From Acorus gramineus (lineage: Eukaryota; Streptophyta; Magnoliopsida; Acorales; Acoraceae): DNA of 64,000 nucleotides. Positions 41,339 to 62,953 of the stretch are shown piece by piece (position 1 is the first letter of the stretch; each line of letters opens with the position of its first letter). Below the pieces are notes generated by a model. It did not search any database. It was not told the DNA's origin and worked only from the letters and a program-made list of their open reading frames with translations. The stretch lies in contig CM060850.1 of NCBI GenBank assembly GCA_030737835.1, positions 26,943,385 through 27,007,384 on the forward strand, given 5' to 3'. A program made the translations under genes and the position numbers.

Positions 41339-41761
41339 TCAATAACACTTGAACCCAGCAGGGATCCTACCCCCACAGTTGTTCAAAACCGAGCTAAGTG
41401 ACACAGTGACATCAAGATTAATGCCCAAAACATTAGCCTTGATGGCCTTACAAAGGCAGATGGCCGCTTCGATGCCGGAGAGGCCCTTCAAGAGCGCGCA
41501 ACAAGAGCCTCCACCGCCTCCCGACCCAATATTCACCAGCCCTCCAAGCAAATCAGCGCAGACGCCGAGCTTTAGGGGGTCCCTGGGGCACGCACGGTAG
41601 ACCGGCGGGTACTTGTACATCGGCGGGGGCTCCGTCGGCCGGATAGGTTTACATTGGTTTGGCTTGCATGGGAGGTAGGTGGAAGAGACCAAGGAGAAGC
41701 AGAGGAGGTTGAGTAGGGGTAGTGAGAGAGATTTGGATGCTAGAGGCTTGGGTGCAACCAT
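41339..41761 (-). CDS. Hybrid proline-rich protein, 8-cysteine motif (HyPRP 3)
   Basis: 140 residues in a single exon. A signal peptide covers about 1-27 (SLSLPLLNLLCFSLVSSTY). A short Pro/Lys/Tyr-rich linker with two extra cysteines (YLPCKPNQCKPIRP) follows, then the C-terminal 8-cysteine domain from about residue 58. A GSGGGGGS loop lies between the second cysteine and the CC pair, and [17 protein letters not shown] follows. The two linker cysteines could pair with each other. Close in the domain to HyPRP 1 and the HyPRP 5 pseudogene. Expected to be secreted. No strong TATA box was found; ACTATAGTATATG about 35 bases upstream is a weak candidate. Confidence 0.9.
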   Translation of the reverse strand: MVAPKPLASKSLSLPLLNLLCFSLVSSTYLPCKPNQCKPIRPTEPPPMYKYPPVYRACPRDPLKLGVCADLLGGLVNIGSGGGGGSCCALLKGLSGIEAAICLCKAIKANVLGINLDVTVSLSSVLNNCGGRIPAGFKCY

Positions 41762-53040: not shown

Positions 53041-53424
53041 TTAATAACACTTGAACCCTGCCGGCGGTTTGGAGCCGCAGGCGTTGAGGAGGATGCTCAG
53101 CGATACATCAACGTTAAGGTTGATGCCGAGCACGTTGGCCTTGATGGCGGTGCAAAGACAAGCCGCTGCCTCAAGGTCGGCCAGACCGGCCAAGAGTGAG
53201 CAGCAAGGGGTGTTCAACTGGCTTCCGGTCACCACATTAACAAGTCCCAACAGGTCGGCGCTGACGCCGAGCTTCAGCGCGTCCCTCAGGCAGGTTGGGT
53301 ACTTGGGGACTGGTGGTTTGATGGGCTTTGGGTGGGGAGGTTTTGGTGAGCGTTAAGTGGCAGAGACCATGGTGAAGAAGAGGAGGAGGAGAGCAGTTGT
53401 TGCAAAGGCCTTGGAGGAAGCCAT
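53041..53424 (-). pseudogene. HyPRP pseudogene (HyPRP 5)
   Basis: From the start at 53424 the frame reads MASSKAFATTALLLLFFTMV, a good signal peptide, then a TAA stop at codon 24 (53355-53353). Beyond it the same frame continues unbroken through a Pro/Lys linker and the 8-cysteine domain to 53041 (127 codons in all). The second conserved cysteine is replaced by serine ([10 protein letters not shown] where relatives have KLGVCADLLG). The rest of the domain is intact, including [20 protein letters not shown]. The stop and the lost cysteine, together with the transposon stack just upstream of its TATA box, indicate a dead gene. Translation from the inner methionine at 53250 would give only a half domain. 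Decay is probably recent. Confidence 0.85.
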
Positions 53425-53504: not shown

Positions 53505-53512
53505 TCTTATAG
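53505..53512 (-). promoter_or_regulatory. TATA box of HyPRP 5, inside a LINE target duplication
   Basis: CTATAAGA on the minus strand, about 80 bases before the start codon. Most of it lies inside the sequence CTTATAGCCCATGT (plus strand) that the LINE duplicated on insertion, so everything further upstream in the original promoter was displaced. Confidence 0.6.
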
Positions 53513-53714
53513 CCCATGTTTTTTTTTGCTTGGTAATTGAGGATTTCATTAATAAAAGAGAGGGTAACATATTTACATCAAAACAAAAAGGATATAGCTA
53601 GGACAAGAAAGAGAGTCCAAAGCTTACATGGATACACATGAAAGATAGTAACGATATTAAAGTCTGATAATAAAAACTAGGATTGGAAATTAGGTGATGC
53701 AGAGAAATACCATA

Positions 53715-56700
53715 TCAAGATATCCTGAGTTGGGGAGTACTCGCTTTGCCTTCAGCAATGAAGGTACTTACTTCTACAGTCAGGTGGCAAGGCTGAAGAA
53801 CAGAGGTTCCAATAGAGGATTGCAGGGAAGCCAAACAATCAGCCACTCTATTCCCCTCTCGAAATACATGTGATGCTTTCCACTCGGAGAGTTGATTGGA
53901 GATGTGGTGGATAAGACGTAGATCACGCAAGGCAGTCCAAGGTATCACACCTTTACCATTGGCCCAAGCAATGGCTGTGGTGGAGTCCTGACTCCGATCA
54001 AACCTTCAAAAGGTTAAGGTTTCCTAGTCGAAGACAGAGTTTAAGACCTTCAACTATCCCCTTTAATTCCAAAACATTGATTGAAGTAGCCCGGGTACGT
54101 GCGGCCATGGCTAAAAGACAGTCACCAGATGGATCACGAATGACAGCCCCAAATGCGAAACGATTGTCTCCAAGGGAACCATCAGAATTTATTTTAATCC
54201 AACCGGAGGGAGGAGGTTTCCATGTGACCTCTGTTAGGATTTCATGCTTTTGAATCAAAGGGAGATTGAAGAGAATACTAAGTGTTTTAGAGAGTGGGGA
54301 GTCACCTTCAATCGCATTACCAAAGAACCTGAATCGAGTAAAGAGCATGATCTGATGAACTAGGTTCTTCTCTGGAGTGAAAGAGCCTTTGAATATCTTT
54401 TCATTGTGGGCGTTCCAAATAAGCCAGATGGTCTGAGAGAGAAGGAAATGAAGAATCTTCTTTTCATCCACAGAAATGGCCGACTTCATGAAACCTGTAT
54501 ACAATTCACCTAGATTGGGAAAGCGAATCCTCTGTATTTTAAACAATTTGTGGATAGATGACCACACATAAGCAGCATATGAGCATTCACTGAAAAGATG
54601 AAGTATTGTTTCCTCAGCTGAATAACAAAGTGAGCATTGATTCGACGGAATAAGTTGCATTTTCCATAGTCTATCCTTAGTGGGCAGACGATTTAAAGAT
54701 GCCTGCCGAAGAAGGAAACTGTATCGAGGGGGCTGAATTGGATTCCAAATTTCAAATGTCCACCCAAGAGGGGAGTGATGCCTATGGACATGATTCCACG
54801 CAGAGGAGGTGGTGATCTGTCTGGTTTTATGGCCTATCCAGATTACAATATCAGGACCCAATCCACCAATATCAAGTTCAGCTATATTAGTCCAAACATC
54901 ATTGAACTCTGCTGGCCAGCGGGTGGGTTTAACCCAAGATCCATTCTCAATGAAAAGATTGACTTTTGCTTGATCAATAGGGCCCCAAAGAAGGAGAGCT
55001 TGATTGTGGAAATGATGACGAAGTCCAAAGCCATGGAGCCAGGGATCATCCAAAATATTTATAGTGTTCCCCTCAAATATTATATATTGAGTTAGAGAAA
55101 AAATAACCCAAGATTTAGAGCTAAGAATTCTCCTCCAGAGACTGGAACTTGAGGAAATTTGCGAAACATTCCAAAGGTTCTTCTTCTTTAGATATCCAAG
55201 ACGGATCCATTGAGCCCAAAGTGATGGATGGTAGATGCTATTTCACAAAATCTAACACCAAGAGCAGCAATATTCCAATCCAAAAGACTCTTGAGGCCGA
55301 GACCTCCTTCCAATTTGGGGGAACACACCAAGTCCCACTTAACAGCACATTGCTTGAATTTGGGAGAGTCCTCGGACCAGAGGAATCTCCTGAGGATCTT
55401 TTGAATAGTATTGATTGTTTTCTTTGGGATCGCAAAACCTGCAGTCCAATAGTGACTAAAACTTAAAAGAACTGTTTTGGTTAGCTCTAACCTACCTGCC
55501 TTAGATAGATATAAACCAGACCAGGTTTTGCAGTCTCCTCTGTATCTTGTCAACCAAGGGAGCACAAGCTACATTAGTTAGACTGCCTGATAATAAAGGG
55601 AGGCCAAGATATTTCACTGGAAGATCACACGAAAGAATGCCAAGAGTATTATGCAACATTTCCTTGTTAAGATTGCAAAAAAGTTGGCTCTTTGTAGGAT
55701 TCAAGTGTAGACCCGAATGGTTAGAAAATTTATTTAGAATGTGTAGAATACCCCTTGCAGAAGAAGGTGAGCAATCAGTGAAAATCATAAGATCATTGGC
55801 AAAGGAGAGATGAGAGACATTATAGTGAGTATCAATGTAGCGGCCAACTTTTTCTAATGAGAGAGAAAAAGAATTCATAACCAATACAAAAAGCAGGGGA
55901 GAGAGGGGGTCTCCCTGTCTGAGACCACATGTTGAATTAAAGAAACCAACAGGGCTTCCATTTATCAATATAGAGAATGAGGCTGTCTGCACTAGGCCTG
56001 TCAACGGGTCGGATTCAGACCCGGATCCGACCCGACCCGGACTCGATTACACGTGTAATATACCCGACCCGATTTGGACCCGACCCGAGTTGGACCCGAC
56101 CCGGCGGACCCGAACAAACAAACGGGTCGGGTCCGGGTCCACCTCGCCCCGACCCGTTGGACCCGACTGTTTTTTTTAATATATGCTCATATATTATAAG
56201 ACCATTAATATTAGTTGATACATAATTTTATTTCTTACTTAACTTATTTTTGTATCTACAAGTTCATAAATCATAATCATAACAAGCCTATAAATCGGTT
56301 TGTTTTGGACAATTAACTTATTAGCTTTTTAATTTGTATGATTAATTAGTTTGTTACATGATTTAGGTTAATTTGTATGATTAATTTAGGTTAATATGTT
56401 AGTGTTTATTGTTTTGAATGTTGTTTAGATTAGTTATGTTTATTATTTAGGTTAATATGTTTTTTATGTTAGTGATTATTGTTTTGGATGTTGTTTAATA
56501 ATTCATTTACTTCTTTTGAATTGTATAAAATTATATTCAAACATAGTCTCATTAACAATAATGTTTTATTATAAAAAATTTCAAATAGAATGATAAGGCA
56601 AACAAATACATGAGCTCTTTTTTTTTTTTTTTTTACCCAACCATCCGGGTCGGGTCGGACCCGGACCCGACCCGGGTCCGACGGGTCCGGGTCCGGGTCC

Positions 56701-58069
56701 ACATTTCCCCGGACCCGCCGGGTCTTGGGTTGGACCCGGACCCGCCGGGTCCTGTCACGGGTCGGGTCCGGGTCCACCCCGACCCGACCCGGACCGACCC
56801 GTTGACAGGCCTAGTCTGCACACACTGAAGTACTAGATTAGTCTAAAAAGGAGGAAAATTGTGGCTCTTCAATACCTCATGGAGATAGTCCCATCGGACC
56901 TTGTCAAATGCCTTGTGAAGGTCAGCTTTTATGCAACATCGACCCTTTGATGATGGAATATTCAAAGTATCTGATCAGCTCGTGTGCTAAGATGGTGCTA
57001 TGAGCAATATTCCTGCCTTTGACAAAGGTAGATTGATGAGGGAGAACAATACGAGGAAGAACCAATTGGAGACGCAAAGCAAGGATTTTCGATATTGTCT
57101 TATATACCAAGTTGTAGAGAGAGATAGGTCTGAAGTTATCTAAGGAGTCCACATGCTTAGACTTTGGAATAAGAGAGATAAAGGTGTGGTTGATTTGTCG
57201 GAGGAGATGTCCAGTAACAAAGAAAGTTTGAATAGCCTTGACAAAGTCAACATGGATTATGTGCCAAAATACATGAAAGAAGCGCGCTGGAAAACCATTA
57301 GGACCGGGACTACTGAGGGGCTCCATAGAAAACAAGGCAGACCGAATTTCTGCATATGTGACTGGAGCAGAAAAGGTGTCACAGTCTTCAGATTTCAGTT
57401 TAGTGGCCAAGCTTAACTCAGGAATGAAAGAGGCTTGATGCTGAGATAGAAGAGACTTGTAATATTCAATCGCAAAGCACTTAATCACCTCTGGATCAGA
57501 AGAGATGGAACCATCGGGCAATTTGACATTGTGGATGGTGTTTGTAGCAGCCCTGGCCTTAAGAGAAGCATAAAAGAATTTTGAGTTACGATCACCATTT
57601 TGTAGCCATGTTTGCCTAGATTTCTGTCGAAGAAGAGCTTCCTCTCTACGTAAAAGCAGCAAGTAATCCTTCTTTGCCTTTGTTTCTGCTTCAATGAAGA
57701 CAAAATTTTGAGGGCTGGAGAGTGGTTAATTGAGCATTATCTAAGCAGAGTTTAGCAGCTTGTAGCTGATGGTCGATCCAACCGAAAGTGACTCTGTTCG
57801 AAAGCTTCAGGTCCCCTTTGAGGTGTTGCAGTTTTTTTTACTAAAACAAACATGGGGGATCCAGATATCTGAATTTCCCGGGCTTTAGAGACTAGGATGG
57901 TAAGATCCGGATGAGATTCCCATGCCTGAATATATCTGAAGGGACGTGGACCCGAGGGGAAAGGTGGTTTGACAGTAACATGAAGTGCAGAGTGATCAGA
58001 GAGACCAGGACCCCTGGAGTGATAGTAGCATTCAGCATGCACCAACAGCCAAGGTAGATTAACCATGAC
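53715..58069 (-). pseudogene. LINE ORF2 remnants: endonuclease, RT, zf-RVT, RNase H
   Basis: The endonuclease C-terminus is at 58069-57752 (PGLSDHSALHV). The reverse transcriptase begins at 57662-56922 (WLQNGDRNSKFF, ISLIPKSKHVDSLDNFRPIS, then KADLHKAFDKV) and resumes after the hAT element at 55984 (GLRQGDPLSPLLFVLVM). Its catalytic box reads SFANDLMIF where active plant LINEs have FADD, so the first aspartate is lost. The zinc-finger-like zf-RVT region is at about 54800-54540 (RLPTKDRLW, CSLCYSAEETILHLFSEC). RNase H starts near 54210 (IKINSDGSLG) and changes frame near 53998, continuing at 53948-53715 (EGNRVADCLASL). A plant-type RNase H at the end is usual for plant L1 elements. Confidence 0.88.
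55993..56813. mobile_element. Non-autonomous hAT element inside the LINE
   Basis: A perfect 8-bp target duplication, GTCTGCAC (55985-55992 and 56814-56821), flanks it. The perfect terminal inverted repeats are TAGGCCTGTCAACGGGTCGG and its complement, apart from one base (GGTCCG) near the inner side. Both subterminal regions are dense in GGGTC/GACCC units; the centre is AT-rich. 821 bp with no transposase. It interrupts the reverse-transcriptase frame between the VQTA and SFSILING parts. A decayed relative is at 10205-10625. Confidence 0.92.
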
Positions 58070-58081
58070 CTTATAGCCCAT

Positions 58082-61076
58082 CACAACCAGAAAAAAGGGT
58101 TTTAGCGACGGACTTAGGCCGTCGTTGTAGGTCATCATCGACGGACATAAACAGTTGCCGTTGGCGTTGATGGTGTCGTGAAAAGGTTGGCGACTGACTT
58201 GACCAAGTCCGTCGCTGTTACATTATTTAGCGACGGCTATAATCCGTCACACTTGGACAAGAGCGACGGATTATAGCTGTTGCTGTAGCTCTTTTGTGAC
58301 GGATAGAATCTGTCGCTGTTGATTTTGACAAGGTGTAAACTGATCTATTGTGACGGACAAAATTCGTGGAGATAGCCCCTACAGAACTTTCTTCAAAGCT
58401 GATTCTCCACTTTTTTTTAATCAAAATATGGATCTCCAATCATTTTAAAAAACAAGGCATTCATCTATATTCAACATTTCAAACCACTTGAACACAAATA
58501 AGAGACAATTGCATGAAGGAAATTTTTTAGGTGAAACTAATACCAAATTAATTTTACAACGTTAAGATATCTCAAAAATACACAAAAAGATACAAGTACA
58601 AAGTATTGTCTAGTGCTCTCAACATATTCTACAAGGGTACGTTCTGTTGTTTATCGATCGTCGTGGTTAAAATCAGAGACAGAGTACTTCTTTCTCTTAC
58701 TTTTACAATCCTCACATGCCTCATCGCCATCCTCAAAGCCTCCCCAACCTCACCCATGAAGGCCCCTATCATAGCATACTCAGTGACTAATTTACAAAGA
58801 CAGTAATATGAGGCATACTAATAATCTTTATTAAATGGTGATTTTAGTAAAAAAAAAAAAGAAAAAAGAAAAAAAATGCTTTTATGTAGGTGCTTTAAAT
58901 ATAGATAATATTAAGAATCTCATAAGCCATGCAATTATACAATATTTACCTTTTGCATTTGAGGAACTCTTCCACTGCTTTAACATGGTCTATGTTAGTG
59001 ATATTATCGGAGTAGGTCTAGTAAGATGGAAAGAACACAGTCAAAGATATGGTTAGCATCACTAAACTTAGCAGCACCCAACAGTGAGAAAATTTTCTAT
59101 GTACTTACGAAGACTTTGGAAGCAATTAGTATATAACAATGATATTTAATAATTTAAGCATGTATTTAAAGTATAGAACTTCCTACAAGCTTTTGATCAT
59201 AAATTAGAGCATATTATACTTGATGCAACTACTCCTGGCCACCTGCAATCTAGTGTTTAAGTGTTGACAAATATTTTGGAAAGTAGGCAACATTGTCAAA
59301 GGTATATTTCTGGTCTACAAGGGATGATAGGAACTGATACTTGCCATGCTGTTTGAACACATGGACATATAAATATCAGGTAATACCAAAAATCGCATGA
59401 CTTGTTTTGTCCATAGAAGTCATCCACCAATCTAAAGTTCATTTACATATATCATCGGTGAAAATCATAAATAACACTACAAGAATGAGAAAAAAACAAC
59501 AACAATAATAATAGGAATTATCATTTATCAGGATGGAGTCATTGCTATATGCAAGACCACTTTGGGTGATGACCTTTTAATGGTCTTTAATAAATTTTTT
59601 ATAGCCAACATAATAGCTATGGCATTGTAACAAATTAAAATTCATGATAATTTATGATATCAAAACACTGAAACAACCGCGCGTGCATTTCAAAAATATG
59701 TTTAAGTTCCACTGTGCACCTTAATTTTTTTGTGTACTTCTGCTAGTTGAGCTTGCAATAACCTTGAGTGGTTACCTAGTTCCTGTGAAAAGTAGTGCAA
59801 TGAGAATTTAATTTCTTCAGATAACAAAAAAGCAGTAGAAAATTCTTAAAAAGGAAGGGGATATGCAAAGCTTGGAGCTCTGAAATGTACCTCAATTTTT
59901 TTAAATGCAATCCTCACATGCTTTAATGTTTTAAAAATAAAAAACTTCAACTAATGAGGTATATGTTTCAATGAAAAATTTATATCGCTCTATTTGAATT
60001 GAATTGAATTGACTCATTTTTAGCAAATGTAAGAAAAAATTAACGACATATATATGCTTAAGGAGGTATGTAACTTTATTTGGGGCGGTAAAAAAGATTG
60101 TGTAATAGTGCCCTTAAAAGAATCAACAACTTCCCCTTCTTATCAAGAGGAGAGGAGAGCATACGCAACACCTGCTCAACCAAATTTTGTTCCATCTCCA
60201 TGGAAAAAAAAAACAAAGTCAGGTAAAACTTTTTACATAAAAAATTAGAAGCATAGATCCCCAACACCACCACCACCACCTCTAAAAAGTTTAACAAAAC
60301 AAGAAAGATTGTACAAATGCAATATCTACAACACCATCAAAGACATAGAGAAAGACTACAAAAATAAAAAATCAGCCATTCAATCTTCTGGTTCCCCAAA
60401 TCCAACACACCTAAAAGTCCATTAATCTCCAGCACCCCTCTTTGATGGCCCAACTAAGAAAAAAATCGAAGTGTGCATGAAAGAAAAACCAAACCCTATA
60501 TCCAACAAAACAAATGTTGAAGAAAGGAAATAAAAACTCAGATATGAACGAAGTCAAAATCAAATTGATTCAATGCTTTTAGAGTTTAGGAACCATAGAT
60601 CTGACTGGAAAAAAAAATAGATCCATACAAGTAATCCATCAAAAACACAAACAAAAAATACATACAAAAAAAAAAGAAAATAAACATGCATACCAGATCT
60701 AGAAAAGCAAGAATATGTGCCATGGGAGCGGTGACAAAGTCTGGTGGCGGCGGTGTCGGAGCTACGATGCAGAGCTGTGCGATGGGAGCGGCGACAGAGT
60801 CCAGCGGCGGTTTGGAGGAAGGGATCAGGTGCTCGTTTGGGGGTTTGGGGGCATGATCTGGTTTTCTGGGTTTTCATGTGTGGGGGGAGAGGTGGCGAGA
60901 TTTGGGGAATACAGGGGGTTTTGGTTTTTTTCATTACTATTTTATTTTTTAAATCCATTAGTGGTGGCTATTGATGAGATTTCTGACGGACAAACCCTGT
61001 CACACAATTCCGACAGTTTTAGTCCGTCACCAATAGTCCCGATGGTCCGTCGGCATTTCTCATTTTTTGGGTTGTG
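58082..61076. mobile_element. CACTA transposon, about 3.0 kb, non-autonomous
   Basis: The left end is CACAACCAGAAAAAAGGG and the right end, on the other strand, CACAACCCAAAAAATGAG, a CACTA-type variant. The 3-bp duplication CAT is perfect (58079-58081 and 61077-61079). Subterminal repeats with AGCGACGG and CCGTCGCT cores fill 58095-58360, and GACGGACAAA / CCGTCACC occur at 60985-61050. No transposase frame is recognised. An exon-like GC-rich patch (60715-60900) contains GGGAGCGGCGACAGAGTC-type repeats and overlapping open frames on both strands, of unknown meaning. It sits within the LINE's distal target duplication. Confidence 0.85.
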
Positions 61077-61104
61077 CATGTGTGGTTCAAGAATATAATT
61101 ATTC

Positions 61105-61490
61105 TGAGATTTATGACTATTCTAGTATAAATAAGAATAAAATAATTTTGTGTTTGGTTGTGTTTTGAATTATTTCAATTGAGAAATGTAATAATAAAGT
61201 TTTTTTGTTGTTTGGATAAAATATGAATAAAATGTGGATAAAGATTTATAAAAGACAAAAAAATGATGACAGTTGATTTATAATAGGTGATGACAATTGA
61301 TTTGATAGTGGGCTCACATATTCTTTTAGTTTGAATAATCTGGAATAACTTAATTCTAATGGGTGGATGGAATCCATATACCACTTTTTACTAGTTAATT
61401 CTTGTATACAGATTCTCATTTATTCCAGTTATCCAAACAACTATAATGAAATTATTTTAACTAATTCAAATTTATACCGAGCTTATTCTC
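61105..61490. mobile_element. MITE in the former HyPRP 5 upstream region
   Basis: The left part (TCTAGTATAAATAAGAATAA, TTTGTGTTTGGTTGTG) and the right part (TTATCCAAACAACTATAATG, CAAATTTATACCGAGC) are inverted. The interior matches 1-175 (TTGAGAAATGTAATAATAAA, AAAATATGAATAAAATGTGG). Non-autonomous. It lies on the far side of the CACTA and LINE, in DNA that originally bordered the TATA box of the dead HyPRP gene. Confidence 0.5.
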
Positions 61491-61939
61491 TAATCAAATA
61501 TGGGCACAGTGTTTTTGGAAGGTGATATAATATAAGCATAATTATTTGATCTGCATGTGATGACATTGGACTGACATGGAGCTGGCACGGGCAACTTGGG
61601 AGGGTAGGGTTAAGATTTTTGTGGTTTGGAGTTTTGCATGGATTGTGGTTGGCAATCACTCCTCTCTCACATGCGTGATGCATGCAATGCAGCTGTTTTG
61701 ATTCTTTGATCTTAATTCTCTGTGTGTGATCCACAGAAATATATATGCATAGAACACCTTTTATGTGCATGCATTTATTGGTATTTTGATTTTTCTTGCT
61801 TTCTTTTTTAGATCATTTTTGTCATTGAGTGTGACAAAAGTTATTCTTGGCACGTGGTTTCCTCCCAATTATCTTCTTTCGGAATAGTATAGTACTTTAG
61901 TTTTCAAAGTACCTCAGTTTTTTGGTGTAATGTGATGTA
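61491..61939. other. Gene-free stretch
   Basis: Less AT-rich than its neighbours at 61560-61740 but with no recognisable gene. If the LINE and CACTA are removed in thought, it lies a few hundred bases upstream of the HyPRP 5 TATA box. Confidence 0.3.
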
Positions 61940-62170
61940 GGGTGCGTTTCATTGTGTGATTGTAAAATTAATTATGTAGAATTCTGTGATTGTAAAACTG
62001 ATTCTGTAAGAAGCTTATTTTCTCAGTTTTTTAAAATCACAGTTTTTGGACATTATTTGTCTGAAATCTGTGTGCAGGAAGATGTTACAGTAAAACTGTT
62101 TGGTTGCACAATTGTAAACGCAGCTTTCTGCAATCGCAATCGCTGTGCAATCGTGCAACCAAACGCACCC
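61940..62170. mobile_element. MITE, 231 bp
   Basis: The ends GGGTGCGTTTCATTGTGTGA and, on the other strand, GGGTGCGTTTGGTTGCACGA are good inverted repeats. GTA flanks both sides (61937-61939 and 62171-62173), a possible 3-bp target duplication. Relative at 42262-42495. No coding capacity. Confidence 0.65.
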
Positions 62171-62305: not shown

Positions 62306-62953
62306 CAGGGTCGGCTCTTTTATTAGGCAACTTAGGCAATTGCCTAAGGCCCTCAGATGTACAAAGGCCCCTAAATTGTTTTTATTTATAAGTTGATCCA
62401 CATGTTAGCCAATGATAACTTAACACCTTGCAAAAAAATATTTATTTTTCAAAACAATTAATAGTCATTTTGATATAGTTAAAAAGTAACTAATAAAAAA
62501 TTGATAAAATCTTATGATACCTAAAAAATAGCAAAACAAAAAAAATTGCATAACCAATAGGATTTAAAGATTTTTTTGAATCCCAAAAAAATAGAAATAT
62601 GAAACGGTGAGGCTAAAAAAGTGTTGTTATTGTTTTTTCACTCTTTTATCATTTTCAATATATTCCTTCTTTATTTAAAAAAAACAATTCTTCTCACTCT
62701 ATTTCTTCTTTATATAAAAAAATCTCTTGATTTTCTGTTTGCTGGAGACTAAAAACAATTATGTGGTGTAGACAATAAGGAATAAAGTATTTTTTTATTT
62801 GAATTAAATAAAAACTTACATATAAAAATTCATTAATAATTTTGCAGTCCAAAAAACTAGAAGAATGATTTTTAGTTAAAAAAATTAATAATTTAAAATT
62901 AAAATAAATATTAATTAATTGACTTAGGCCCATAATATATCAGGCCGGCCCTG
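62306..62953. mobile_element. Non-autonomous hAT element, 648 bp
   Basis: A perfect 8-bp target duplication, AACATTCA (62298-62305 and 62954-62961), flanks it. The ends are CAGGGTCGGCTC and, on the other strand, CAGGGCCGGCCTG. Just inside the left end is GGCAATTGCCTAAGGCCCTC. The centre is AT-rich with no transposase. Such CAGGGCCGGC ends are common in plant hAT elements. Confidence 0.88.

Follow-up and report, generated by a model that had tools for sequence, protein, structure and literature searches.

L1-type LINEs of plants that carry an additional RNase H domain are a known type. The LINE described here lies in a 64,000-nucleotide stretch of Acorus gramineus DNA (CM060850.1, positions 26,943,385 to 27,007,384), referred to below as the window. 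It resembles those elements in its reverse transcriptase, zinc-binding region, RNase-H-like match, poly(A), 14-base target duplication, and 5' truncation, and is nothing new in type, but its target was the junction between a MITE and a gene. hAT and CACTA-like elements nested in older elements are likewise familiar, and those in the window are similar, with inverted ends and 8-base and 3-base duplications, respectively, although the termini of the latter read CACAACC. The neighboring gene is comparable to other tandem HyPRP/8CM genes in its hydrophobic N terminus, short proline-rich part, Hydrophob_seed domain, and position in a tandem array, but this copy is a pseudogene. The MITE family in the window is akin to the Tourist-like MITEs of the PIF/Harbinger superfamily, such as maize Tourist and rice mPing, in being short and in having G(N)5GTT ends and TTA/TAA-type duplications. 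Insertions of mPing that disrupt TATA boxes are mentioned in a part of PMC3782648 that cites Naito 2009. In contrast to those disruptions, the TATA core here remained with the gene, and the junction later became the target of a LINE.

All parts of the locus are of known kinds, and it is the completeness and datability of the record that stand out. It provides an ordered and partly dated series of events at a core promoter (duplication, MITE, LINE, and hAT), and the same array offers both a paralogue with an empty site (L008) and an intact paralogue with an element at the same point (L010). With a few related accessions, this locus would allow a test of which event leads in the death of a gene, displacement of the promoter or mutation of the coding sequence.

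The HyPRP pseudogene and its array

The assembly analyzed comprises 398.6 Mb in 137 contigs. A genome scan with Pfam PF14547 returned 21 match rows, 12 of which fall on contig C4 between 26.80 and 27.05 Mb. One member of this array is found in the window on the minus strand at 53043..53424 (127 codons, with the ATG at 53424), and matches PF14547 with 90.4 bits over 53047-53295. A first-pass annotation of the window had described an early stop and a lost cysteine in this gene, and both were confirmed: codon 24 is an in-frame stop, and at codon 55 serine replaces one of the eight cysteines of the 8CM. The nearby HyPRP paralogues have open frames, and L008 keeps all eight 8CM cysteines in an open frame. 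We read 53043-53424 as a pseudogene of the HyPRP (8CM) family.

Over 126 codons, the pseudogene and L008 differ with a Ks of 0.320 and a Ka of 0.025. Since their split, the pseudogene branch has acquired 14 synonymous and 5 non-synonymous changes plus one stop, and the L008 branch 10 synonymous and 1 non-synonymous change, with one of each unassignable between the branches. Neutral evolution along the whole pseudogene branch predicts 41 non-synonymous changes (P 1.1e-11), and the gene was therefore under strong constraint for the greater part of its history after the split from L008. The ratio of non-synonymous to synonymous changes did not differ significantly between the two branches (P 0.37).

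Elements stacked at the TATA box

The TATA core of the gene (TATAAG on the minus strand, 53506..53511) starts 87 bases before the ATG. It is followed on the plus strand by eight bases, GCCCATGT, at 53512..53519, and the two together make up CTTATAGCCCATGT (53506-53519), the gene-side copy of the 14-base LINE duplication. The LINE itself occupies 53520..58069 on the minus strand, with its poly(A) at 53520-53527, and is 3,721 bases long when the hAT and one copy of the hAT duplication are excluded. The first 12 bases of its distal duplication, CTTATAGCCCAT, lie at 58070..58081 on the plus strand, and the copy resumes with GT at 61080-61081, beyond the CACTA-like element. The reverse transcriptase, poly(A) tail, and target duplication of a LINE are all present; Pfam matches to RVT_1, zf-RVT, and RVT_3 (RNase-H-like) were obtained in three of the four pieces scanned. 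We take an SDHSAL stretch to resemble the C terminus of the endonuclease, and the 5' end of the element presumably falls inside the endonuclease region. In each of the three other copies fetched, the 3' end is followed by poly(A) and then by unrelated DNA. Close relatives (87-95% identity) were found for the 3' end only; when the 5' part was searched, the other 30 matches were 64-80% identical, 23 of them below 72%.

On the far side of the pile, 61077..61505 on the plus strand starts GTGTGGTTCAAG and ends ATGGGC at 61505. When 61077-61500 was used as the query, 5,283 first-look candidates were obtained, and all 40 of those scored, the window copy included, span nearly the whole query; the best other copies among these 40 are 93% identical to the window copy. 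Alignment of the ends gave the terminus GCCCATGTTTGG, whose complement forms the opposite end. This family consensus fits the G(N)5GTT terminal repeat included in the criteria for Tourist/PIF-Harbinger elements in a section of PMC2213677. The window copy carries one substitution in the motif (GCCCATGTGTGG, in which GTG replaces GTT). Thirty copies were examined for target duplications, and three were dropped for having an end that could not be placed. An exact 3-base duplication was present in 14 of the remaining 27 (TTA 6, TAA 3, TTT 2, GTT 2, and TAC 1, hence TTA/TAA in 9 of the 14), a count in which at least three pairs with common flanks (L038/L050, L042/L052, and L043/L051) are non-independent and both GTT cases form one pair. 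At each of eight shifted control positions, the corresponding count was 0 of 27. The window copy is flanked by ATA and ACA, one mismatch from a 3-base duplication, and 13 of the 27 other copies likewise have no perfect duplication. These features of 61077-61505 fit a Tourist-like MITE of the PIF/Harbinger superfamily. Paired repeat copies were also seen at G000:C11:28489 and C11:2059765, which have the same score; together with the MITE pairs sharing flanks, this suggests segmental duplications or unmerged haplotypes in the assembly.

With 61077-61505 recognized as the main body of a MITE, the LINE duplication resolves into CTTATA from the gene and GCCCATGT from the MITE. The MITE preceded the LINE at the TATA box, because the LINE now parts the first eight MITE bases, left beside the gene, from the MITE body. 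The first-pass annotation had the LINE strike the TATA box and duplicate its core; the 14-base duplication is indeed exact, but the MITE had struck the TATA box first. From the orientation of the LINE, we infer that the first-strand nick, at the poly(A) end, was made inside the MITE end.

The hAT element (55993-56813) has identical inverted ends of 20 bases and lies inside the LINE between two copies of GTCTGCAC (55985-55992 and 56814-56821), a duplication already recognized in the first pass. No transposase was seen in 55993-56813. Among the 40 hAT copies scored, the window copy included, 36 span the full 821 bases, and the two other copies fetched have 8-base duplications of their own, CTCCTGAC and GTGGCAGG.

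The CACTA-like element (58082..61076, 2,995 bases, CACAACC...GGTTGTG) is bordered by CAT at 58079-58081 and 61077-61079 and splits the distal LINE duplication, in agreement with the earlier description. Elements of the CACTA/EnSpm group have CACTA or CACTG termini, a 3-base target duplication, and subterminal repeats. Here, both the window element and the single copy fetched have CACAACC termini rather than CACTA or CACTG, hence the name CACTA-like; GACGGA-type repeats are visible by eye, unscored, near both ends. The fetched copy, with GAT duplicated on both sides, is the one close copy (92%) among the 40 scored of 1,532 candidates; with one close copy only, the element carries no age estimate. 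Pfam gave no match in the one frame of the element scanned. The nested duplications bear out the previously proposed order of the LINE first and the hAT and CACTA elements later, the placing of the CACTA-like element after the LINE turning on one or two bases. At the level of sequence, the structure of the locus and the order of events are demonstrated.

The history that we propose, which as a whole we hold to be highly probable, would begin with a tandem HyPRP gene. After the split from L008, a Tourist-like MITE would have entered the TATA box, and a 5'-truncated L1-type LINE would then have integrated by target priming at the MITE/gene junction, duplicating 14 bases. Later, a hAT would have entered the LINE, and a CACTA-like element the distal duplication. 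The TATA core has stayed with the gene, and the upstream control DNA has been moved about 8 kb away (7,994 bases, 53512-61505, and not the approximately 7.5 kb first estimated). Lost upstream control, possibly with silencing spreading from the elements, would have ended function and with it selection, and the stop and cysteine changes could then have accumulated freely. For this last chain, from loss of control through loss of function to coding decay, which we infer, the dating is compatible and is no proof.

Age of the insertions and loss of the gene

Private changes were counted in each dated layer. The MITE has 25 in 425 sites (0.059 per site, 95% limits 0.038-0.087), the LINE 10 in 475 (0.021, 0.010-0.039), and the hAT 9 in 808 (0.011, 0.005-0.021), the limits overlapping widely between LINE and hAT and barely between MITE and LINE. 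One or two outgroup copies served to polarize the LINE changes, and 3 additional sites were ambiguous; the hAT changes were polarized by two copies; the MITE consensus was built from 29 copies chosen for similarity to the window copy. The other 29 MITE copies lie 0.012-0.064 from that consensus, with a family mean of 0.041. The resulting age ranking, MITE, then LINE, then hAT, is consistent with the nesting. Of the 25 changes in the MITE, 18 are C>T or G>A, as are 8 of the 10 in the LINE; the element clocks run fast by deamination. A deamination-free clock was also used, with 5/96 as one timing input and base-change classes entered by hand.

If the gene had evolved neutrally since the MITE arrived, 13.0-16.6 non-synonymous changes would be expected (P 0.026-0.003), and with the family-mean MITE age of 0.041 the P value for this model is only 0.059. 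The point estimates are 0-0.017 per site for gene death and 0.046-0.059 for the MITE. The gene was probably still alive after the MITE had arrived, and the MITE would not have been the killer. Neutrality since the LINE predicts 3.3-5.9 non-synonymous changes, and 6 were seen, which would place the death of the gene near the time of the LINE; the data fit either order of the two events. Which came first, silencing or mutation, had been described in the first-pass annotation as not known; the LINE and the death stay unordered, but the question is partly answerable, in that a long period of selection was followed by a late death.

A doubtful but still credible alternative is that the gene, as a redundant tandem copy, died first by chance mutation and that the LINE followed into an unselected promoter. 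The open frames of nearby paralogues mean that such a loss may be tolerated, and under the deamination-free clock the 6 non-synonymous changes seen compare with 3.3 expected since the LINE (P 0.12). Against it, the point estimates for death and for the MITE make death before the MITE unlikely. We favor the history in which displacement of the upstream DNA preceded the coding decay.

The ancestral junction and the promoters of the paralogues

The old upstream promoter DNA of the HyPRP gene lies at 61506..61940 on the minus strand, of which 61543-61815 can be aligned with the L008 promoter. A query with 61502-61940 gave 6 genome matches, the best besides itself being the L008 promoter (E 2.5e-31); the upstream DNA of L006 also matches (E 2.0e-30). 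In L008, the match stops 124 bases before the ATG. The two flanks in the window were joined, with the insertions and one 3-base copy removed, and aligned globally to the L008 promoter. The score was 360. None of 200 joins with shuffled upstream DNA scored above 159, and the values were 80.5 for the DNA at present next to the gene and 133.5 for the MITE taken as upstream DNA. Alignment is poor over the 40-60 bases immediately upstream of the TATA box, and the break was placed by the element ends rather than by the alignment. By this comparison, the tandem paralogue L008 represents the empty site, with its promoter uninterrupted.

In 9 of the 10 paralogue promoters examined, TATATAAA, TATAAAA, or TATAAAT stands 80-104 bases before the ATG; the L008 TATA box is TACATAAA, 68 bases before the ATG. 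The promoters of L009 and L012 differ in length upstream of the TATA box. In L006, about 750 bases (G000:C10:6476181-6476939) intervene between the conserved upstream block and the TATA box; this extra stretch has, besides itself, five short genome matches only, and L006 was rejected as a further element case. Nor was an element junction at the TATA box demonstrated for L004/L011, in which the promoter similarity ends about 10 bases before the TATA box and the repeats found lie about 200 and 400 bases farther up.

The possibility that the TATA core near the gene was brought by the MITE, rather than derived from the gene, is very unlikely. It draws on L001, a MITE copy with CTTATA at the corresponding MITE end and TATAAG at the opposite one. 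The 14-base CTTATAGCCCATGT, however, occurs in the 398.6-Mb genome at two forward-strand sites and no reverse-strand site, one in the window and the other L001, despite the abundance of the MITE, which argues that CTTATA is not part of the MITE family end. Moreover, L008 is alignable with the C-rich run and leader that adjoin the TATA core, and paralogue TATA boxes are at similar distances. L001 (G000:C1:27826685) was also considered as a source of the gene promoter, or as a paralogous site, and was set aside as another MITE copy; its palindromic CTTATA/TATAAG context perhaps reflects a four-base TATA duplication.

Entry of the CACTA-like element into the MITE before the LINE is most improbable. 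Evidence that CATGT was still whole comes only from the G and T that follow CAT in the gene-side copy, and that T may belong to the poly(T) run; the G at 53518, however, would then require an untemplated base at the poly(A) junction. Insertion of the CACTA-like element after the LINE remains our reading.

The first-pass proposal that the LINE landed on the gene's own promoter, with GTGTGGTTCAAG onward as the original upstream DNA, deserves almost no credence despite the 14-base duplication and split distal copy on which it drew, since candidate copies of the MITE at 61077-61505 number in the thousands and the L008 promoter aligns to 61506 onward and not to the MITE. An empty site running from the TATA box to GTGTGGTTCAAG, as then proposed, would represent the MITE-only stage and not the original promoter. 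The case shows that a repeat can pass as an original flank when events are read from duplications alone.

Compared with its sister L007, the empty site, the intact paralogue L010 carries an insert of about 820 bases. Similarity resumes at CCCTATATAAACC, which puts the end of the insert no more than about three bases from the TATA box. The insert occupies reverse-complement positions 388-1206 (G000:C4:27028043-27028861) and is multicopy, with 228 candidates in the genome, 40 of which were scored. The L010 insert itself has no clear target duplication. The ends of two other copies were fetched; one (C3) has an 8-base duplication, ACTGGAAT, and none was seen for the other (C10). With the duplication in one of the two, the insert is considered hAT-like. 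The L010/L007 gene pair has a Ks of 0.173 and a Ka of 0.030. An element abutting the TATA box is compatible with a conserved coding frame and need not be fatal, because L010 is intact with an element there.

In one gene, the same 14 ancestral bases were hit by the MITE, the LINE, and the CACTA-like element alike; at L010, the TATA box is adjoined by a hAT-like element unrelated to these. We advance only tentatively, and as rather unlikely, the idea that TATA boxes of the HyPRP array are recurrent landing sites; L010 is one case among 11 promoters viewed, with unequal closeness of comparison, and the hot spot is only a lead. If it were true, the array would offer a natural series of genes whose core promoter has been severed at one and the same point from the DNA upstream of it, one of them dead and another apparently alive.

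Two further elements lie in the window beyond the old promoter DNA. At 62306-62953 is a hAT-like element with CAGGG...CCCTG ends and an 8-base duplication, AACATTCA; its ends resemble those of the L010 insert, and a BLAST search of the L010 upstream DNA against the window gave no match. A short element with GGGTGCGTTT...AAACGCACCC ends occupies 61940-62170, and a relative of it is found about 500 bases upstream of the HyPRP gene that occupies 41339-41761.
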